Shown here one piece after another: positions 1-64,000 of a DNA stretch of 64,000 nt. The DNA lies in NCBI RefSeq assembly GCF_040807025.1, contig NC_090964.1, positions 10,192,214 to 10,256,213 on the forward strand. Reading direction: 5' to 3'. Under the pieces are notes generated by a model, which saw nothing but the letters and a program-made list of their open reading frames with translations, did no database searches and was not told the origin of the DNA. A program made the translations under genes and the position numbers. The first letter of the stretch is position 1. Each line of letters begins with the position of its first letter. The DNA is from Struthio camelus (Eukaryota; Chordata; Aves; Struthioniformes; Struthionidae).

Positions 1-1915
1 CACGTTTGCAACATGACCATGCAGCACCTATCTCGCCAACACATTAGCCGCAGCTGTTGATGTAATTCTCTGACTGCTTGTAAAGTGACTCACTGCCCCT
101 TTACAGGACATACAAATCACATAGGGGCATCCACGCGCACAACCTAAAGGGATTCATTTGGGAAAAAAAAGAACTAGCTGAGCCACCCAGAGTCCAGATG
201 ATTCAATGTGCAATAACCTGCCTCCCCTGACAACCCTAAATTACTAGCAGGTGAACTAATGAGAATGGTCACAGCTCAGAGGTTCATTTCAAGCCTTCCA
301 CAACCTAGTTAAAACCCCCCCTGGCGAAACGGGCTTAGCCTGTAGAGTTCAGTCCATCACCTCAGCCTAACCCCTTCCAAGGGAGAGGGACAGTGTTTGT
401 CCCAAATGCAGACTCAAGCTGGCCTAAAGCAGGGTGAATTATTTGGGACGTTTCAAGTACAACAAAGAAGGAACTTACAGGACTGGATATTTTACTTTAG
501 AGAAACACAAGAGGTCTGTAGCCTGACTCCCACCAATACATATGGCATAAACGGCAGCTTTTTCTCTTACACCTTACACTCAGGCATAAACCTACAAAGG
601 TGTTCAAGCCACTAGCTCCTGTGGAAGCCAATGGGAGCTAGGGACTTCAGGCTCCTACTTATCCCTGTGGATTTGTGCCTTCATGCTATGTAAAGTGATT
701 AGAGAATTAAATGTCTGACTGCATTTTCTGGCTGAATAGGGTGGCAGAAGAAGAGGATTTTGCAATTTCTTGGTTTCTGACACATAGCATTACTTTGTGT
801 ACTTACTCTACACAACAGCAGGTATTAGACTGCTGTATCTTGCCAATTCAAATAACATGGAAAACTGCGGTTTAGCCTAAACACACACGTGAGACTGTAC
901 CCTGGAATCCCCTTCACCCTGTGCAGTATTTAAGAGGAGAATAGACTCTATTTGCTGAAATGCATTTAACGCTTCCCAGTTGTTATTCTGAGTTCCATCT
1001 TTTAGTTCTGTCATCCCACCAAACAGGCCCAAAGCGGCACACACTGCAGAACACCAAAGGCATTCCCGCCACTAGTTCCGTTTCTCCATTTAAAATATTC
1101 AGTGCTTTTCCCATACAGCTTACTAGCCCTCCCCTTCCAGACGGTGAATGAAGAGACCAACACACAAACAACATCCCGTTAGAGAACGGTGTTGCTGAGT
1201 CTGCTTTCACAAACGCTGCTGGGGGGAAGAGAGAGGGGCAGAAAGGCCCAGGCAGCGCAGACCTCCTGAGTCTGCCAGCGCTATGCGATGCCATTGCCCT
1301 CTGAGAGAAGGAACCTCTCTGACAGGACGCCAAGCACTAAAACAGCTCGCCCAAATCACCCCTTAGGATCAAGTTTGCGTTTTACTAGTAACTTCAGAAT
1401 CAATTACAGGAAGCCAGTTTGGTCTACAGATATACTATGCGCTTACGTCAGAGTGCATTTTAGCAACCTCTTTTTAAGAACAGCATTTAACAGACTCAGT
1501 GGGCACCCATTTCTTGATCTCCAATTCTGGTTATAAAACTTGGATTTCAGATTTGAGCAGACTGAAGCTCTTTTAGAGTTTGAGCAGTAGTTCTCACACT
1601 ACCAAATATCACAATTAGAAACGGCGTAGAAAGAGTCCCCAGAGGGATATGAAAAAGACATCACCTTATGAAAAAGCTTCAGAATGAACCTGTGAAATAA
1701 ACAGCAACCAGACAATTGTCTTCTAAGGAAGATGGAAGTAACGGTAGAAGAATATAACATCTTAAACAGTCAGTGAGTCAGTCTGAATGTACAGGGGCAC
1801 TATATCCCTACAGATCTGTGATAAAAGCACACTATATCCCTACAGATCTGTGGTGAAAGCTAACAGCCACAGCCAGCTGGTCCCCTCAAGTCCCAAAGGG
1901 AGACTGGGCTGCAAT
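1..1915 (-). other. TRAPPC3: TRAPPC3 3' UTR and downstream flank
   Basis: This is sequence downstream of the TRAPPC3 stop codon, read on the minus strand. I find no canonical AATAAA on that strand. Two AGTAAA variants (complement of 1381-1386 and 491-496) are the best polyadenylation candidates, so the 3' end is not fixed. A 32-base tandem duplication lies at about 1799-1862. No second gene is recognisable. In human the next gene on this side is COL8A2, and none of its collagen repeats are visible here. Confidence 0.5.
1799..1862. repeat. 32-base tandem duplication
   Basis: Two near-identical copies containing ACTATATCCCTACAGATCTG lie head to tail with a 32-base period and a few substitutions in the second copy. 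The duplication falls in the presumed TRAPPC3 3' UTR. Confidence 0.8.
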
Positions 1916-7137
<5,222 letters not shown>

Positions 7138-13095: not shown

Positions 13096-14568
13096 AGCGT
13101 CTCCTGCCGGCACAGCTCTTTAAGCAGAAGTGGCCAAAGCGAGGTGGTGCCACCATGCAGAGGTGCTGCCTCTCTTGACCCGGCGCCTCCGGGATTCGCT
13201 GTAACCCCGGCCTGCCTGTGCTGAAAGGCAGCCGGGGTCCAGCTGAGCGGCGCTGCAACTGCGGGGGGGAGTTTTGGGGGTCGGTGTTTTGAGGGGGGAA
13301 GCGGGGAAAGGACCCTGAATTGTGCCTTCCTAGCGGCTGTCAGAGCTTTGCTGGTCCAGGTGGGCGTCAGCAGGCGCAGGTGACATAAAGCAGAGCCAGA
13401 TCTAAGAGGTCAGGGTGTTTGCCAAGAGAGAAGGCACCGACTGCCCTGGGAGGCAGCAGATTGTGCGGGGTTTGCGTTCTCGCCAGCTTTGTTGCAGGAG
13501 TAACTCAGTGCTGTCCTGGCTGGCGGCAGGGGAGAGGCGACTGCAAACTGAGGCTGAGGACACCCAGGTTGCTTCTCCTGCATTCCCCGCGCAACCCTGG
13601 CCAAGTGACCTCTCCTGCCTGGCCGAGCTGCTGCGACCAGCTGCTTCGTGCTGTGCTCAGTTCCCAGCACAAGCTGCCAGTCCCAGCTGGCTCCGGCGCG
13701 GCTGCTAGCCCGACCAGGCTCTGGCGGGGGGGACCAGCGCCAAGAGCCACCCCGCTCAAGACAGGTTCAAAGCACACCCCTTTTCCTGCCTCGCCGTTCC
13801 CATCCGCCGGGGTTACAGCCTGGCTCCTCTCTAGCCACCAGCTCCCATTTCCTTGGCAGAGACGGCTGCAGCACTAAGTGCCGGGCGACGCTCTGAGCTG
13901 CCGCGAGGGCTCCCGAAGCCTGGCAGGCCGTCAGCCCCCGGTGCTCCGTCCGCCTCCAGCACGGAGCCGCTGTGCTCCGCTCGGGGCTCGGGGAGGGGGC
14001 AGGGGGACCCCAGGGCTGCAGCTGGGCAAGGATGGGAGCCACCTGGGAGGATGTCTGAGCACAGGGGAAGCCCGGGGAGCCCCCGCCTGCTGCGGAGGGA
14101 CCTAGCAGCTGGGTGCTGAGCAATCGCTCGGTGTCACCGCCCAGCAGCCGCGCCGGGAGCGCGAGGCCAGCCGGGCTCTCCCCAGCTGCAGCCGACCTGC
14201 TGCATCGCCTTCGACGGCTGCATCCCCGAGAGCGCGCAGCACCGTGCGCCTCGCTCAGCCCCTGGCTGGCCTGCCGGGCTGCCAGCCCCCAGGCCTGCTA
14301 CCAGCTCTCAGCGTGCTCGATCTGGGCTGGGGAATCTGCCAGCCTCGCCGCCGGCCCCGGCAGGAGCCCGACGCTGCGCGAGCAGGAGGCTGCGATGCGG
14401 CTGCTCCCGCATCTCCCAGCCCTGAAGCGCAGGGCAGCAGCCCGCGAGCGCGGCCTCCCTGCTGCGGCGGGCGCTGGGCAGGCGGCAGAGGGGCAGTTCC
14501 CTCCACGGCACCCGGCAAACGGCCATCTCCTGCGCTCCTCTGACCCCTGCCCTGTGCTTCCCCTGCAG

Positions 14569-15957
14569 CTGGAGAGCTACTTCCAGGGCGGCGCGAAGAC
14601 GGAGCCGGCGGAGACGCAGCTGCACGCGGTGCACGACCACACGGCCGCGATGCTGAAATGGGCACGAGCCTCCTGAGCCAGGCGGCCGAGCAAAGCCACA
14701 AGCTCACCGACACGGAGACGCGGGTAGCGCCCGGGGCTGCCCTGCCTGGCCGGCCCCGGGGGACGTGCCGGGCTGGGGAGGTGAGAGGATCCCCAGGCTG
14801 GCGCCACGGCCGCTGCTGACTGTCCCCTGCAGAGACCTCCCTGGCGCCCGAGGCAGAGCCGAAGGGCTTCGAGGACTGTGCAGCGCCCACCGCTCCGGCT
14901 TGGCTGCCAGCAGCGTCTACATGCTGCACGTCCCCAACTCCGCGGCCTCGGCCCGGGTGAGCCTGCGCGTCCCCGCGGCCGAGCTGGGCCAGCCCTCACC
15001 TCTCTGCCCCGTGTCTTGCCCAGGACGTGGCTGCGAGGGGTGCTCAGGGGGCGTCTGCACGTATGCGGCCCGGGGGACAAGCGGGTAAAGCACTGGGGCG
15101 CCTCGGCTCTCTCCCTGGTCTGTGCAGGGCACCGGCTCAGTGCACAGCTTGTGGCAGTGACATCCTCTCCTGGGCCTCAGTTTACCTGGTACCATGTTCT
15201 GGTACCGCGTGGGAAAGGGAAGATGCTCTGGGGTTCAGTGCCTGGAAACGCAGCAGATTTTCCTTAGCCCAGAAAAGCTGCTGCAGGGATCGAGGAGCGC
15301 GGCTGGCCCCCGTGCCGCTGGCTGCTTGCCTCCCCGGGGAGCCCAGCTCGCCAGTGTCACCCATCTGCGGCCACAGGGCTCGCCTTGCTGCAGCCCCCAC
15401 TTTGGTGCTGGCCGTGGGACTCCTGGTGCCCCGGCATGAACCTGCCGTCCCCTTCCCAGGCGCTCTGTGACATGGAGACCAGGGCAGGGGGCTGCACCGT
15501 CATCCGGCGCCGGCAGGACGGCTCCGTGGACTTCCACCGCACCTGGCACGTAAGACCCTCCCGCCACCCCACGCCGCTTGGGAACACCAGCGCTTCCTTG
15601 CTGGGGCAGGAAGGGCTTCCCGTGCAGCCAGGAATAGCCGGCTATTTCCAGGGGCCGGGGGACCCGCAGCCCAGCTGCCCGGCACGTGCTGGGGCTGATG
15701 GTGGAGCAGGGGTTGCGTGCGGGGCTGCAGCGGGCATTGAGCGGGAGGCAGCATCGCCCATGCTGCTCCCCATCACCACCTTCCCCTGCAGGGCTTCGGG
15801 TCGCCCTCGGGGGAGCACGGGCTGGGGAACGAGCTCCTGCACCGCCTCACCTCGCGGAGGCCCTGCGCCCTGCGGATCCAGCTGCGGGGCTGGGACGGCA
15901 ACCAGGCGCATTGCCTGTACGGGCACTTCCCGAGGGCGGCGAGGAGCAGAGCCACCG
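14569..15957 (+). pseudogene. Angiopoietin-family (ANGPT1/2/4-like) unitary relic
   Basis: Four exon remnants with intact-looking AG/GT borders. At 14569-14723, LESYFQGG...QLHAVHDHTAAML matches the first angiopoietin coiled-coil exon; a one-base loss after AAA breaks the frame, which resumes as GTSLLSQAAEQSHKLTD. At 14833-14956, FEDCA then, one base out of frame, AHRSGLAASSVYMLHVPNS begins the fibrinogen-like domain. At 15460-15549, ALCDMETRAGGCTVI has Cys where the family has Trp. At 15792-15957, GFGSPSGEHGLGNELL continues the domain; a third shift separates GHF from EGGEEQSHR. The signal-peptide exon, the remaining coiled-coil exons and the last fibrinogen exons (WWFDACGPSNLNG region) were not found. 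A functional angiopoietin would be a secreted TIE2 ligand; this copy cannot encode one. Three shifts could be consensus errors, but the missing exons argue for a real pseudogene. Confidence 0.85.
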
Positions 15958-17097
15958 GTGAGTCCCGGGGAGCCTGGCCAGGCCCGGGCTTCGGCAGCTG
16001 CTCTGGCACCGGGTCTGGCCAAGCATCTGGCTCCGACCCGCTGGAATCGCTCCTCCCCGCTCCGTGCCTGCCCTCGGCTCCCAGGGCTGGGCGACGCCGG
16101 CTCTCCCCGCGCAGCCGCGCTGCTCAGACCGTGCGAGCCATAGCCCCGGCCTGCCCAGGGCCAAGGCGAATATCGGCTGTCACCACCCCGTTTGTTTTAT
16201 CGGGGCAACCGTGCGAGAAAGCCACAAAGCAAACAGCATCTGCGTGGTGCCCGGGGGCTGCCCGCGGCTGCCCGTGCCGCCCTGGCTCGCGCAGCACCCG
16301 TCCTCACGGCTCTGGGATGGTCACCGGGCTGGACCCCAGGCTCCTTCCAGGCCTGACCTGCCTGGCACACTCACCATGGGGCCAGGCTGGGAGCTGCCCC
16401 CAGCCCCGGTCCGCGCGTCCCCAGGCTGCCCACCTCGAGGCCGAGCAGGATGAGAGCGAACGCGGTGCAGCGTGCCGTCCATGCGCACCGCAGCCCTCCC
16501 CGCCCTGCCGCCAGGCGCTCGCGGCTGTGCCGGAGCCGGGGGCAGCTCTGCTGCGGCCGAGCTGAGCTGTCCCCAGGAGCCGGCTGGGCTGCGCGGGGCT
16601 GCTCTGCGCGTCCCTGCCTGCAGCCCCGTTGGGGCCGGGCGGCGCACGGGCGGTGGGGTGGAAGCGTGTCCTGCCATCAGCGAAGGGTGGCAGGGCCAGG
16701 GCGCAGGAGGGCACCAGAGCCAGGGCCTCACAGCAGGCCAGGCACGGTGTGGTCTGGGGCCAGCGCCGGTGTCACGGACGTGCTGGTGGGGGGCTCTGGA
16801 CCCATGGCAGGAGGGAGCAAGACCCTGCCCACCACGGCCAGCAAGCGTGCATGCTCAGGGCTTGGTGGAGACGGGGCATCGCAGATGCTGGGCTGGGCTG
16901 GCCAAGAAGTCACTGGCCTTTGCCCTGGAGGCCAGGGCTGGGCAGGGGCACCTCTCCCTGGGGAGCAGCGGGGGCTCCCGGGCCGTGTGCGCTCCCTGAG
17001 CCACCGCAGCCTCTCCTGCCCGGGCCACGCGCGGGCCCGGGCTGCCCCGACGCTGCCCGCGCCGCGCTCCCCTCGCCGCCCTCGAAAAGCAGCTCGA

Positions 17098-17183
17098 GCT
17101 CGGGACCGCGCCGGCTCCGCTCGGGACCGCGCCGGCTCCGCGCTCGGGACCGCGCCGGCTCCGCTCGGGACCGCGCCGGCTCC
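17098..17183. repeat. Four-copy 21-base GC-rich repeat in the GH3 gene 5' region
   Basis: Four copies of CTCGGGACCGCGCCGGCTCC, separated by short GC spacers, about 300-390 bases upstream of the GH3 start codon. The copies are nearly identical, so copy number may vary between individuals. Confidence 0.8.
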
Positions 17184-17309
17184 GCCGCCGCTTCTTCGTG
17201 TCAGCGCAGAGCGTCGCCCCCGCGGCCGCCCCGCTCCGCTTCGCCCCGCCGCGCCCATCGGCCGCGCAGCGCCGCCTCGGGGCCCGTCCCGGGAGCGGAG
17301 CGGAGCCGC

Positions 17310-17410
17310 GCCGAGCCGGGCCAGGCCGAGCCGGGCCAGGCCGAGCCGAGCCGAGCCGAGCCGAGCCGAGCCGGGCCGAGCCGGGCCGATCCGCGCCGAT
17401 CCGCGCCGGC
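17310..17410. repeat. CCGAG/CCGGG pentanucleotide tract
   Basis: Runs of GCCGA and GCCGG pentamers followed by two GATCCGCGCC units, less than 200 bases before the GH3 start. Similar pentamer tracts occur at about 6832-6875 and 41376-41404, each inside a CpG-island promoter. Confidence 0.8.
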
Positions 17411-17485
17411 CGCCGGGCTGGGCGCTGCGGCCCCGGGAGCGCCCGTCGGGCCCGTCGGGCCGCTGCGCGCCGCGGCGGCGGGGCC

Positions 17486-20400
17486 ATGGCCGGGCTGGGC
17501 GCCGCCGCGCTGCTGCTGGGCGCCGCGCTGTCCTGCGGGCAGCCCTTGCCTTTCCCCTTCCCCTTCCTGGACCCGGCGCTGCCCTGGCACCGCCGCCTCG
17601 ACGACCTCGTGGGCCGCCTCACCCCCGCCGAGATGGTGCTGCAGGTGCGGGCGGGGGTCCGGCGGGTGCGGCGGGTGCGGCGGGTCCGGCCCCCCCACCC
17701 CGGTGCAGCGTTTCTGCCCCGCAGGTGGCGAGGGGGGGTGCCCTGAGCAACGGCCCCGCGCCCCCCATCCCGCGCCTGGGCATCGGGCCCTACAACTGGA
17801 ACACGGAGTGCCTGCGGGGCGACGCCGAGGCGGCCGGCTGGGCCACCGCCTTCCCCCAGGCGCTGGGGCTCGCCGCCTCCTTCAGGTACCGGCCCTCCGA
17901 GCCCCGGGGCCAGCTCTCGTAGCCCCGATGCCGACCCTCGGGGCCCCGGGGCTGGCGGGGATGGGGGCGCGCGCGGGACGGGGCCCTTGGGCTCCCCGTC
18001 GCTCCCTAACGCTTCTCGCCCCGCAGCCCTGAGCTCGTCTACCGCGTGGCCAACGCCACCGCCACCGAAGTGAGAGCCAAGCACAACCATTTCGTTGCCA
18101 CGGGCCACTACGAGGACCACACGGGGCTCAGCTGCTTCAGCCCGGTGCTGAACATCATGCGGCACCCGCTGTGGGGCAGGAACCAGGTGCCGCGGGCGTG
18201 GGGAGGCCGGGCCGCCGGCCTGGGTGCTGGGCCAGGCGGGGAGCTGCAGGCCAGGATTAGGCCTTGCAGGACCGTCCCCGAACAGCCTCAGGGTGGCAGC
18301 AGCTCCATGGGGAGCTGGCGAATCCCGGGGGCAGGAGCACGTGCTGAGGACGGGAAGGTGCTGGGGCTGGAGCGGGTCCCCCCCCCACCCCGGGGGGAGC
18401 CGTACAGCGTGGCCGACTGGAGCAGCGGTGACGCATCGCTCTGTGCACCCGTCAGGAGACGTACGGGGAGGACCCGTTCCTCACCGCGGAGCTGGGTGTG
18501 AGCTTCGTGCAGGGGCTGCAGGGCCAGCACCCGCGCTACGTCAAGGCGAGCGCCGGCTGCAAGCACTTCAGCGTGCACGGGGGTCCCGAGAACATCCCTG
18601 TCTCCAGGCTCAGCTTCGACGCCAAGGTGAGCTCGGCCGGGCGCGCCACGGGGGGGTGGGCAGGGGGCTCCCCCAAGCGCTGACCCCGTCTCTGCTCCTC
18701 GGTGCTCGCAGGTGCTGGAGCGGGACTGGCGCATGACCTTCCTGCCCCAGTTCCAGGCCTGCGTGCGTGCCGGGTCCTACAGCTTCATGTGCAGCTACAA
18801 CAGGTACCGAGCGCGGCAGGGCTCGTGGTGGGGCGGCCGCGAGGGTGCAGGGATGCCCCGTGGCCGTGGCCCGTTCATGCTTGCCGGTGCCAGCTGCCGT
18901 GCTGCAGCCCACCCGATGCCCTCTCCTCCGGCAGGATCAACGGCGTTCCTGCCTGCGCCAACAAGAAGCTGCTGACGGACATCCTGCGGGGCGAGTGGGG
19001 CTTCGAGGGCTACGTGGTGAGCGACGAGGGTGCTGTGGAGCTCATCATGCTGGGACACCACTACACGAGCAGCTTCCTGGAGACGGCCGTGGGTGAGCGC
19101 GCGGGGCCCGCGGGAGGGACGCGGGATCCCCAGGGGCCGCGCAGTGACAGCGCGCTGTCTCCCATCCCTCGGGCACGGCAGCTGCGGTGAACGCCGGCTG
19201 CAACCTGGAGCTCTCCTACGGCCTGAGGAACAACGTCTTCATGCACATCACCCAGGCCTTGGCCATGGGCAACGTCACGCTGGAGGTGAGCCGGGAGGGC
19301 GCTGGGGCGCGGGGCAGGGCTGGGGCTGCTCCCTGCCCTCGCTCTGCGCCCCGGCCGCCCCGTGCTGAGCGTGACCGAGGTCTTGGTGCTGGGGGTCTTT
19401 GCAGACGTTGCGTGCCCGGGTCCGGCCCCTCTTCTACACCCGCCTGCGGCTGGGGGAGTTCGACCCCCCGGCCCTGAACCCCTACAGCAGCCTGGACCTG
19501 AGCGCCGTGCAGAGCCCCGCGCACCGCACCCTCGCGCTGGAAGCTGCCGTCAAGAGCTTCGTCCTGCTGAAGAACGTGCGGGACACGCTGCCCCTCCGGG
19601 CGCAGGAGCTGCGCGGCCGGCGCGTCGCGGTGAGCCGGGCAGACCGGCCGGCCGGCGCCGGAGCTGGGGGCCGCCGGCGAGCCCGCGGGGCCGCCTCGCT
19701 CCGCAGCCGGGGCGTCGCGTCTCCTGCCTGGGAGCGCAGGGCTGCCCCTGCTCGTCCTCAGCCCCCTCCGCTCTGCAGGTGGTGGGCCCCTTTGCTGACA
19801 ACCCCAGGGTCCTGTTTGGGGACTACGCGCCCATCCCGGAGCCGCAGTACATTTATACGCCCCGGTAAGACAGGACGATGCCTCCGTCCACCCCTCGGTC
19901 CCGCCGGGAGAGCCCTGGGGCTCGCTTTGCCCCGGGCTGCTGCTGGGGCCGCGCGGCCCGTCCCTGCGAGGGACATGCTCGTCCCCAAGGCAGAGGTGCC
20001 TTAACGCTGCCGGCGTCGGAGCCTGGACACGCGCTGGTTTTCCCTGGCGCAGGAGGGGTCTGGAGATGCTGCCAGCCAACGTCAGCTTCGCGGCGGGCTG
20101 CAGCGAGCCGCGGTGCCAGCAGTACTCGCCGGCCGAGGTGGAGGGAGCAGCGCGGGGCGCCGACGTGGTGGTGGTGTGCCTGGGCACGGGTGCGTGGGGC
20201 CGGGGCGGCCGGCCGGCCGGCGGGCAGAGCCACGGGGAGGAGCAGGGCGCCGGCGGCCGCTCCGGCCTGCTGAGCCCTCGGCGCTGCTCTGCCCCGTCCG
20301 TCCGCGGTGCCCGGCTTAGCCAGCTCTTCCTTGGCTCTCGCCCGCAGGGACGGACGTGGAGATGGAGGGGAAGGACCGCGAGGACCTGTCCCTGCCAGGC

Positions 20401-21468
20401 CACCAGCTGGAGCTGCTGCAGGACGCCGTGCGCGCAGGTAGGGGCTCAGCGCCGGGGCTCAGCGCCAGCTTGACGCCACCCGTTGCCCATCCCATGGGGC
20501 GCCCCAGGCACCCGCCAGTGGCGGGTCGCGGTGACAGCCCGTGTCCCTCCAGCTGCCGGGCGCCCCGTCGTGCTGCTGCTGTTCAACGCGGGGCCGCTGG
20601 ACGTGAGCTGGGCGCAGGCGCACGACGGCGTGGGGGCCATCCTGGCGTGCTTCTTCCCGGCCCAGGCCACCGGCCTCGCCGTCGCCCGGGTGCTGCTGGG
20701 CGAGGAGGGCGCCAACCCGGCCGGCCGGCTCCCGGCCACTTGGCCGGCCGGCATGCAGCAGGTGAGGCCAGGGCAGCCCCCGCGCCGGCCGCCCCGCGGT
20801 CCACCCCCAGCCTGCCTCCGACGCGGCCGCTTCCCGCAGGTGCCGCCGATGGAGAACTACACCATGGAGGGGCGGACGTACCGCTACTACGGGCAGGAGG
20901 CCCCGCTCTACCCCTTCGGGTACGGGCTGTCCTACACCACCTTCCGCTACCAGGACCTGGTCCTGAGCCCCACGGCGTTGCCCGCCTGCGCCAACCTCTC
21001 CGTGTCCGTGGTGGTGGAGAACACGGGGCAGCGGGACGGCGAGGAGGTGAGCGCCGCGGGCCCCCGGCTCTGCCCTGGCCGCAGCGGGGGGTACGGACGG
21101 TGCCGGGATCCCTCCTGGGGCGTTCGAGGGAGGGGGCAGCCGGGGGCCCGGAGGGTGCTGACGCCCGTCCCTGCTTCCAGGTGGTGCAGCTGTACCTGCG
21201 GTGGGAGCAGGCGTCCGTGCCGGTGCCCCGCTGGCAGCTGGTGGCCTTCCGCCGGGTGGCCCTGCCGGCCGGCCGGGCGGCCAAGCTGCCCTTCCAGGTG
21301 ACGGCGGCGCAGCGCGCCGTCTGGGCGCAGCAGTGGCGCCTGGAGCCCGGCGCCTTCACGCTCTTCGCCGGCGGGCAGCAGCCGGGCCAGGAGAGGCGGG
21401 CCAGCTCCGAGGTGCTCAGCCGGCAGTTCAGGGTGACCGGCGCCGCCCGGCCCCTGAGCCGCTGCTAG
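17486..21468 (+). CDS. Secreted glycoside hydrolase family 3 protein, beta-xylosidase-like
   Basis: Predicted to hydrolyse terminal beta-linked sugars in the secretory pathway, lysosome or outside the cell; substrate unknown. Fourteen GT/AG exons: 17486-17644, 17725-17885, 18027-18186, 18456-18626, 18712-18803, 18935-19092, 19182-19285, 19405-19629, 19779-19864, 20053-20189, 20348-20437, 20553-20761, 20840-21046, 21181-21468. All phases agree, giving 748 residues. A signal peptide (MAGLGAAALLLGAALSCG) starts at a strong Kozak ATG. The GH3 N-terminal barrel holds GPYNWNTECLRG, CKHFSVHG (Lys196-His197) and the nucleophile Asp278 in GYVVSDEGAVE. The C-terminal GH3 domain holds VVGPFADN and EMEGKDREDLSLPGHQ. 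FGYGLSYTTF and a fibronectin-III-like module (VVQLYLRW onward) follow. Sequons NAT, NVT, NVS, NYT and NLS support a secreted glycoprotein. It resembles plant and fungal beta-xylosidase/arabinofuranosidase sequences; humans have no GH3 gene. AATAAA follows at 21525. Confidence 0.93.
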
Positions 21469-21524: not shown

Positions 21525-21530
21525 AATAAA
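21525..21530 (+). terminator. Polyadenylation signal of the GH3 gene
   Basis: Exact AATAAA 57 bases after the TAG stop codon, followed by a short GT-containing stretch. It implies a very short 3' UTR of under 100 bases. Confidence 0.85.
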
Positions 21531-21715: not shown

Positions 21716-21723
21716 TATAAATA
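21716..21723 (+). promoter_or_regulatory. Strong TATA box without a recognised gene
   Basis: TATAAATA inside GAGAGCTATAAATAGAGCCC, an excellent core-promoter match, about 190 bases after the GH3 poly(A) signal and pointing right. A start site would be expected near 21745-21755. I see no convincing spliced ORF downstream. It may drive a noncoding or unrecognised transcript, or be fortuitous. Confidence 0.4.
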
Positions 21724-22133
21724 GAGCCCGGGGCGCAGGCACAGGCGGCCAGCGCGGGGGCACGGGCAGGGTGCGGGGCCGCCGGGACGGCACGGGACGC
21801 GGGCCCGGGGGGGCGCGGGCTGCTCCGACCCGCGCCTGCCTCGCTGCGGGGCCCCCGGCATCTGTTCCTCTGAAAATAGCCCTGAGCGTTTTCTCTTGCT
21901 GCCGGGGCTCAGGGATTTCCCAAAGCCGCCTGCCCGGCCCCTGCTCAGCCCCTCGGCGGCAGCAGCGGGACCGGCGCTGGGGGAGCAGCTCCCTCCCTGC
22001 GGGGCGGCCGGCGGTCCGGCAGCGGTGCCGGCGTGGGGCGCCGCGCGGCAGGGACGGGATCCTCCCCAGCGCCGGGGGCCGGCGGGCAAGGTGGGGCTGG
22101 CGGTGAGCATGTGAGGCTGCCCCGGCCCAGCAC

Positions 22134-26161: not shown

Positions 26162-39545
<13,384 letters not shown>

Positions 39546-60861: not shown

Positions 60862-61023
60862 GTGTAACTGACAGGTGCTTGCAAAGATGTCTAAAACTAA
60901 CAAATCAAAATCTGGATCCCGTTCTTCTCGTTCGAGATCTGGATCAAGATCACGTTCGCGTTCCTTCTCCAAATCTCGCTCCCGTTCTCGTTCTGTCTCA
61001 CGATCAAGAAAACGCAGGCTTAG
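60862..61023 (+). CDS. THRAP3: THRAP3 first coding exon (partial gene)
   Basis: THRAP3 (TRAP150) is a nuclear Arg/Ser-rich protein that works in Mediator-linked transcription, pre-mRNA splicing and mRNA decay. This exon starts after acceptor GTTTCCTTCAG, has 25 bases of 5' UTR ending GCTTGCAAAG, and opens with ATG at 60887 ([14 protein letters not shown]), followed by RS-dipeptide repeats and ending SRKRRLR at donor GTAAGT in phase 2. That gives 45 complete codons. The N-terminus is the conserved vertebrate THRAP3 start. The rest of the protein lies beyond the window's right edge, so completeness cannot be judged. Confidence 0.95.
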
Positions 61024-64000
61024 GTAAGTGCATGTGGCTCCAGGTCAAAGGGTGCAACGGTCTGTTTTTCCAGTCTCTGTCCTGTTCAGATGGTTTGTCA
61101 CTTAGTGCTTTTCTATGAAAAGCCTTTTTTTAGATTCTAGAATAGATAGTGTCTTAGGGCGTTTCCTGCCAACCTATACTTTTTGAAGTGTTTTTAATGA
61201 GCTAGAATAAATTGTCTGTTTCTCTGTATTGTTAAGTGTTTTTATTTTTATTTTTTTTAAACTTAGCTGTTATTTGAGTCCTTAGCCTGGTCTCTGTAGC
61301 ATTTTTTTTTTTTGATGAAGGGTCATTTTACTTTTCTCTGTGGGATTTTTTTCTAACTTTAATAGTAGCAACTACAATAGTAATGATGCACAATTAAACA
61401 AGAAAATGTTTTTGTTAGTACAGCTAACTTTTACAGTATTATGGTCCACAGTAAAGTTGTTACAGCCTTTCTAAACCAGGCCCTAAGAGAAGGCCTCTTA
61501 CTTTGCTTTTCCTAAAAGGTATTGATAAAAGCCTCTGTCAAAGGATGCATTCCCGCTCCGTTCTTCTGCAGTCTTAATTGCTGCTGTGTGTAAGGTGATA
61601 ACCCATTATACATTTTCCTAATGTTAAGTACACACAATCTTGAGGAAGATCTGGCTTCCTATGTTAGAGGTACTTACAGATGATGATGTGTTTGAAATTG
61701 CCTAAGCAGGGCAATACGCAAAAAAAACAGCTTTTTATCATGATATGACAAAAGTGGTTGGTTTGTTTGTTTTTAGTAGACTTGAAATGCCTTTGATCCT
61801 GGGTTTGCTTTGCTAATATAAGTGGTAGTGAGTGTTAGAGTTTGTGTTCCTTAGTTAGAACAGGGAAGAAATCCGGAAGTTCCATAGCAAAAGAAGCTCA
61901 CTTGTTTTGTTAAACATCTTTTTTCTTTCTTTCTTTTTTTTTTTTTTAAACTTTTGAGTTAATTGATCCCAGATTTAAGAGGCTTTTGCAGATGCTACAT
62001 GCTCCTCCCCGCCGCCCCCCCCCCCCCGGGAATTCAGAGGAGTTTTAATGTAATTCAGAGGAATTTTAATGTCAGTTTAAAACACTGCTGTGAAAGGTAG
62101 AAGCAATTCTTTTTTTCTATTTCCCTTCTCCTCCCCTCAAAATACAGGAGTCAGTTAACCTGTATGGTAATTCTGGAGGGATAATGTAGATAATGTTATT
62201 TTCACTGCAGTTTACTTTTAAGAAATTGTTTATGTGCATAATAGTTACCACCTCCACAAATTGCTTCTGATCAGGCCAGTTAAAGGCTCATCTCTTTCAC
62301 AGATATTGGGAAATCTGTTTTTTTCCCTTTCCTTTTAAGTTAAAGATTTTGTATCTTGCAGCAGCATTCCGGTTGGATCTGGTAAAAATTATGTTCAGCT
62401 GCCTTTTCACTAAGCTTAAGTGAGTAACAATTATTCTGAAAATCATTAGGCTATAAGCACTTGCAACTGTTAACAATTAAAGATTTTCAAAATGCAGAGG
62501 CTGTAATAAACATACAGTTGGAGAGAGAAGGACAGGACAAAACCAAATTAGAGGCGGAGACTTGAGTCAAACTGAGTCCTTTGCAGAAGGAAGCTGGAAT
62601 GCTGGAAGATATGTTGTCGTTTGGGAATATCTGCCTAGCTGTGAAGCAACTTTGACAATTGGAAATGAAGGCACCCTGTATAAACATGATTGTTTCCTCT
62701 GTGCTGCTGCTGAACCTACTTGCGCTTTGCAAATAGCATCTTAAAAAAAAAATCAAAATGGAGGGGGTTAGTACAGACAAATCATCTTGTATGGAGTTAG
62801 CATATTCTCTGAGGTAGGTCTAACGTGTTATTTTAGCATAAAAATCCATTTTAGTGTACTTGAGTGTACATCATGAAAATGGTTTTACTCTTAGTCTTCG
62901 TTCCAGAGGCTTACTTTGTATTCTAGGTTGTCTTCCCATGTTTGAGTCTACCTGAAGTTACTTGCTTTCTTTATGGTTTTGTTTTGCGTTTGTAAGCATT
63001 CTAAAATAGTGGACTCTCTAAAACTTGTAGTGTGTTTTAGCCAGCTAGCTACAGAGACTGCCAGACCTGGGAGAATTATCGTTACTTTTATTGTTTCTTT
63101 TGCATAGCATTTATTGTATTTTTTTTAAATGATTTCTTGTAAATCGTCTCTGCAACTTTTAGAGTTAGATTTTTTCCTGCTGCAAGCCACTCTAAAATGA
63201 CAGAATAGATTTTGGAAGCAGCATACAACAGGTCCCCTGCTCATAATTGGCAACAAATGCAGTAGTTGTCTGAAAATGGGAGCGTATATGTTCTGCTTAG
63301 TGCTTTTGAATAGGATTCCTCTTTTAATTGGTTCATTCTTGCTGTCTGCCCCTGCCTTTCCTTCTTGTTTGTTGCTGTTTTTCGAATGAGGAAGTGTCTC
63401 AGGTAAGTTGCTAGGGTTTTTTTGGGGTGGTTTCAAGTAAAGGAAGACGCATATGTTAAAATTGCCATTAAACGGTTTGCTAGCAGTGACTACAGTATGA
63501 GTAAATTGTTTCCTGTTAAACTCTAATGTATTTGATAGCTGGAAAAAATAAGAATAGATCTAAAGTTTGCTTTAACTGCATGTATGTACTTTACTGTTTT
63601 AGGAATTCTAATGGTAGTTTTTTCTGTTAGGTTTTGGGGGTGTGAGGCAGGGGAAAATAGGGGGCAGCAGTGAGTTGTGTTTTTTGCCAGTCTGGAGAAA
63701 GAAAGGGTGGGGGTAGTACATATCTTATTAGAATATGACCAATGAGCGTTTTAGAGCTGACTGGATCTCTATTAATGTAAGAGGTGAATCTGGAAATGGC
63801 ATCAGTAAACACTATTTACTAATGTTCCGTTTAGAAAATTTCTTCTGTTTAAACCTACTAGTTTGGACATTTTCTGTTTTACTAATACAAAGTTTCAGAC
63901 TTCCAGCGAACTTTATAGTTTTCTAACAGTTGTGAAGTATTTACTGTAAAGCTGGCATTTAATCCTGAGCTACATGGTGCTTTTAAATAGTAATGCAACT
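61024..64000 (+). other. THRAP3: THRAP3 intron after the first coding exon, running off the window
   Basis: AT-rich intron with poly-T tracts (about 61303 and 61932) and a poly-C run near 62015. The next RS-rich coding exon of THRAP3 is not present before 64000. No RNA gene or transposon was recognised. Confidence 0.75.

Follow-up and report, generated by a model that had tools for sequence, protein, structure and literature searches.

The bird genome analysed here carries a single-copy gene for a glycoside hydrolase of family GH3, probably a secreted, N-glycosylated exo-β-glycosidase with an opened sugar pocket. The gene lies on the forward strand at positions 17486–21468 of a 64-kb window; "the window" is the whole stretch of DNA that was analysed, a single contig stretch (C23:10192214–10256213) within a genome of 1.45 Gb and 262 contigs. 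To our knowledge, the GH3 family is absent from human.

The gene had been proposed in a preliminary description that was made from the sequence alone. Splicing the 14 exons at the coordinates given there yielded 2247 nt encoding 748 amino acids and a stop codon, without an internal stop. All 13 introns are bounded by GT..AG and their phases agree, and so the splice sites and phases are as clean as had been claimed. In each of the 14 exons, GC3 exceeded GC2 by 0.32 to 0.65 in the spliced frame, and the two remaining frames gave differences of zero or below; the coding sequence as a whole has GC1/2/3 values of 0.70/0.49/0.96 (GC3 0.956). The whole 64-kb window was also scanned for high GC3 and low GC2 without recourse to a gene model; 13 of the 14 exons emerged, together with some antisense shadows. 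Exon 9 (86 nt) was missed because it is shorter than the 120-nt scan window. The features of the locus are as follows.

17000–17700, forward strand: candidate promoter, rich in CpG, together with exon 1 of the gene (CpG observed/expected 1.07, GC 0.83)
17486–17644, forward strand: exon 1 (residues 1–53), with Kozak ATG and hydrophobic N-terminus
17725–17885, forward strand: exon 2 (residues 54–107), with W78, N79 (replacing the C5-packing Trp) and E81
18027–18186, forward strand: exon 3 (residues 107–160), with F144 and R158
18456–18626, forward strand: exon 4 (residues 161–217), with K196 and H197
18712–18803, forward strand: exon 5 (residues 218–248), with M243 and Y246
18935–19092, forward strand: exon 6 (residues 248–301), with the nucleophile D278 and E279 (replacing Cys)
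19182–19285, forward strand: exon 7 (residues 301–335), with L311 (replacing the second Cys)
19405–19629, forward strand: exon 8 (residues 336–410)
19779–19864, forward strand: exon 9 (residues 411–439), with Y426
20053–20189, forward strand: exon 10 (residues 439–485)
20348–20437, forward strand: exon 11 (residues 485–515), with the acid/base E491
20553–20761, forward strand: exon 12 (residues 515–584)
20840–21046, forward strand: exon 13 (residues 585–653)
21181–21468, forward strand: exon 14 (residues 654–748 and stop), with the Fn3-like domain
21525–21530, forward strand: polyadenylation signal (AATAAA), which follows the stop codon at a distance of 57 nt

The start codon stands in the context GCCATGG within the CpG-rich stretch. 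The N-terminus is hydrophobic, in keeping with the putative signal peptide proposed earlier; the proposed sequons are present as five N-X-S/T sites, at residues 116, 331, 448, 590 and 636. Beyond the gene, the GC3/GC2 scan of the window detected no further coding signal between 21459 and 32961. The sequence TATAAATAG at 21716–21724 (forward strand), about 250 nt past the stop codon, is possibly the TATA promoter of another transcript.

The 748-residue product carries three GH3-type domains above the curated Pfam cut-offs, in keeping with its first description as a GH3 protein of this length: PF00933 (E 2.5e-42; 145.9 bits, cut-off 27), PF01915 (E 4.2e-44; 151.3 bits, cut-off 31) and PF14310 (E 2.7e-15). 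The marks of the family are all there, namely both GH3 domains, the nucleophile D278, the acid/base E491 and K196-H197. The motifs listed previously, that is, GYVVSDEGAVE with the catalytic Asp, the Lys-His pair (196–197) and EMEGKDREDLSLPG, were likewise found in the product. One earlier argument has to be dropped. The C-terminal module had been called eukaryote-type and taken as a eukaryotic mark. It is the Fn3-like domain of Pfam, which is ordinary in GH3: 10 prokaryotic relatives in one alignment also span the region, and PMC6887791 describes it as common at the C-terminus of GH3 enzymes.

Residue roles were mapped by alignment to the β-xylosidase PcBxl3, for which they are given in PMC8913315. 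The PcBxl3 residues D267, E470, R143 and K183/H184 correspond to D278, E491, R158 and K196/H197 of the bird protein, and E62, Y407 and F129 to E81, Y426 and F144. For conservation, we used 43 distinct ORFs that score at least 390 bits; these come from 56 distinct rows (59 matches, 3 of them duplicates), the 13 lower-scoring rows being dropped. The comparison set consists of prokaryotic and viral sequences, with solved PDB structures also matched. Nine residues (D278, E491, R158, K196, H197, E81, Y426, Y246 and M243) are identical in 43/43 relatives; the Tyr and Met at Y246 and M243 are common to GH3. F144 occupies a position that is Trp in all 43 relatives. Because the catalytic machinery is kept, the protein is predicted to be an active retaining exo-β-glycosidase. 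By analogy with the family, it would release single sugars, one after another, from the non-reducing ends of β-glycosides. In the two-step retaining mechanism, D278 would attack the anomeric carbon and E491 would act as acid/base; the hydroxyls of the sugar would be held by E81, R158, K196 and H197.

The sugar pocket itself is altered. Trp60 of PcBxl3 sits on C5 of xylose and is credited with excluding C6 by the authors of PMC8913315. The bird protein has Asn79 at this position, which in the 43 relatives is Trp in 39, Gly in 3 and Gln in 1. The residue after the nucleophile is Glu279 (Cys in 41 relatives, Tyr in 2), and the position of a second Cys is taken by Leu311 (39 Cys, 2 Ala and 2 Gly). 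None of the 43 relatives has the Asn/Glu/Leu trio (79/279/311), and Glu after the nucleophile was seen in none of the 13 dropped rows, two of them (L028 and L031) having no aligned residue at this point. According to PMC8913315, a disulfide lies on the β face of the sugar in solved GH3 xylosidases; the near-invariant Cys pair at the positions of Glu279 and Leu311 is probably this pocket disulfide.

Two changes, Asn79 for the Trp that closes the space beyond C5 and Glu279/Leu311 for two Cys residues next to the nucleophile, lead us to predict a pocket of a non-xylose type. It would take a sugar other than plain xylose, likeliest one with a C6, such as glucose. We give this part of the reading, a non-xylose and most likely glucose-sized sugar, about an even chance. 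Counted against an opened pocket is the finding that 4 of the 43 relatives also are without the Trp. The pocket changes could also be part of a general divergence: the bird protein matches 115 of 133 columns conserved in ≥ 93% of the relatives and departs at 18, against 0 to 14 columns (median 2) when each relative was left out in turn. The same 18 changes, together with a long branch (1.0 versus a median end branch of 0.24), might be taken to mean that catalysis has been lost, with the gene an incipient pseudogene or its product a sugar-binding or regulatory remnant. We regard this as very improbable, since the 748 codons are open, the splice sites intact and the codon signature strong, and the nine catalytic and binding residues are kept.

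The preliminary description had offered dietary xylan or arabinan, or else an endogenous glycan, as possible substrates. One rival reading is a plain β-xylosidase (or xylosidase/arabinofuranosidase) with a digestive role, breaking down plant oligosaccharides in the gut. Several observations point in this direction. The best PDB matches are β-xylosidases, and the best NCBIfam profile is Xyl3A (NF041776), at 517.7 bits. Two snail hepatopancreas transcripts, with matches in Aplysia, are named 'probable beta-D-xylosidase' in PMC5322654. Furthermore, in the top PDB match, 7zb3, which was deposited as a β-xylosidase, His stands where the Trp is expected. A GH3 enzyme can thus be called a xylosidase without this Trp, and its loss is compatible with xylosidase activity; this is the strongest evidence against an opened pocket. 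However, the Xyl3A score is far below the cut-off of that profile (1250), and the Trp that packs on C5 is replaced, as are both residues of the Cys pair. Three marks of the β-xylosidase type are missing from the bird protein: the C5-packing Trp, the β-face disulfide (if the Cys pair is indeed this disulfide) and a Xyl3A score at the cut-off. With the Trp and both Cys residues replaced, we have not filed the bird protein as a β-xylosidase, and we hold the xylosidase explanation to be unlikely. The substrates xylan and arabinan presume a xylosidase-type pocket, two features of which, the Trp on C5 and the paired Cys residues, are replaced here. The product is most likely a secreted retaining exo-β-glycosidase with an opened pocket, and its likeliest role would be the trimming of dietary or endogenous β-glycosides by a secreted or lysosomal enzyme; it may act in the gut lumen, in the lysosome or outside the cell.

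The gene is flanked by vertebrate genes on the same contig.

1–6000, reverse strand: TRAPPC3 exons, exon ends approximate (six-frame pieces match human-type TRAPPC3, PDB 2cfh, E 3.7e-99)
37045–38685, forward strand: exons of a MAP7-family gene that probably starts before 32961 (PF05672 above cut-off at 37045–37182 and 38503–38685)
60887–61024, forward strand: exon whose translation is presumably that of the first coding exon of THRAP3

The MAP7-family neighbour is presumably MAP7D1, as judged by its position in the gene order. The human order is TRAPPC3, MAP7D1, THRAP3, and no GH3 gene is known in between. At 14500–15960 (forward strand), there is a piece of a fibrinogen C-terminal domain (PF00147, 33.5 bits, cut-off 22). 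The stretch before it resembles an angiopoietin coiled coil, and its frame seems broken; possibly, a decayed angiopoietin-like gene adjoins the GH3 gene. A minisatellite with a 26-bp GA-rich unit in about 30 copies occupies 37544–38320, between two exons encoding the MAP7 domain. The GC content drops sharply from 0.78 to 0.40 between adjacent 2-kb bins at about 42000, apparently in the first intron of THRAP3. No Rfam family matched the 64-kb window at gathering thresholds.

As far as the genome search shows, the GH3 gene is present in a single copy. When the product was compared with its own genome by tblastn (best candidates scored), 13 of 14 pieces fell on the GH3 locus, and a search of the genome with the PF00933 profile gave a single match, in exon 6. 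The lone off-locus tblastn piece (contig C9, E 1.86) looks like a chance match and was rejected as a paralogue. Elsewhere in the genome, β-keratin genes gave at least 150 matches (150 of 414 candidates were scored) on contigs C2, C25 and C30. They form long near-identical arrays, many with a spacing of about 4.4 to 4.5 kb, and the translated examples are presumably feather-type keratins of birds.

GH3 is mainly microbial, and the gene might be accounted for by microbial contamination or as a recent acquisition from a microbe. The closest of the 43 prokaryotic relatives, L062, is 44.1% identical over 692 columns, and local segments reach 48%. All 541 plasmid records that matched are below 60% identity, as are all of the 56 matching phage records. 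A pattern scan of a genome collection (84,980 species) returned 8 relatives, with a best segment of 45%. With two candidates scored per genome, matches were found in 18 of 395 genomes from the phylum of G004 (the Bacteroidetes MAG that carries L014) and in 5 of 392 genomes from the phylum of G001 (the Planctomycetota MAG that carries L011), in both cases with E up to 1e-110. Among viral contigs, a scan with the single bird protein gave no match; a profile scan gave 8 loci, the best segment being 39% identical. Two contigs of the viral collection (L024:2501–4528 and L025:2501–4513) contain near full-length GH3 relatives with best segments of 39% and 38%; these retain the Trp and have Tyr and Ala where the Cys pair is expected. 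In view of the introns, the vertebrate neighbours on the same contig, the single copy and the low identity to the microbial sequences compared, we set contamination and recent transfer aside as exceedingly improbable. The data support a genuine resident animal gene, as had been argued from the outset.

By phmmer score, in a comparison that covered bacterial and fungal sequences, the bird protein appears nearer to the bacterial Xyl3A type (L062, 549 bits; L014, 495 bits) than to fungal enzymes (PcBxl3, 304 bits). Placement in a GH3 tree had been suggested earlier. In a tree of 48 rows (the bird protein with prokaryotic and viral sequences, quick method), the bird protein forms the deep, long end branch mentioned above and has an unusual composition. 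The tree did not identify a sister group: no well-supported set of half the rows or fewer includes the bird protein, and the chosen outgroup does not fall on one side. Because of this and of the long branch, we name neither a donor nor a sister group. The tree indicates a deep separation of the bird protein from the sampled microbes; an ancestral animal may have received the gene by transfer long ago.

The bird protein shares the three-domain layout of the solved GH3 β-xylosidases PcBxl3 (Phanerochaete; 7VC6/7VC7) and TrXyl3A (Trichoderma; 5AE6), as well as the residues that surround the sugar there: the nucleophile Asp, the acid/base Glu, an Arg, the Lys-His pair, a further Glu and a Tyr. It differs from both in having Asn79 for the C5-packing Trp, and from PcBxl3 in having Glu279/Leu311 for Cys268/Cys300. 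The bacterial Xyl3A type (NF041776) provides its top family profile and, among the sequences compared, its highest phmmer scores. However, the C-terminal half of many bacterial members contains an insert (probably PA14) that the bird protein is without, the Trp and the two Cys are each retained in 39 to 41 of the 43 relatives, and the bird score is below the Xyl3A cut-off. Other animal GH3 genes have been published already (PMC6011409). Like these and the snail transcripts (PMC5322654), which are annotated as GH3 or β-xylosidase, the bird gene is animal-encoded. A literature search by title and start of abstract, in which some queries were loose and which covered journals outside subscription, found no report of a vertebrate GH3 gene; this is weak evidence, and we do not claim that the gene is unreported. 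Invertebrate GH3 genes are known in print, and what the bird gene adds is the departure in the pocket.

With this gene, vertebrate biology would gain a GH3 glycosidase encoded on a chromosome; we know of no glycosidase list drawn from human that includes the GH3 family. More tentatively, the gene may represent an old animal GH3 lineage kept in birds and perhaps in other non-mammalian vertebrates. Its pocket would have been remodelled, Asn and Glu having taken over from the Trp that selects xylose and from a Cys pair. The outcome would be a secreted exo-glycosidase, absent from mammals, whose target is a non-xylose or endogenous glycoside. Since the locus is defined, other genomes can be checked quickly. 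The sequence predicts that catalysis is intact and that xylose selectivity is lost, and the departure in the pocket deserves an assay. If the substrate is dietary, the enzyme would bear on how birds use plant glycosides with enzymes of their own; if it is endogenous, a step of glycan turnover would differ between birds and mammals.
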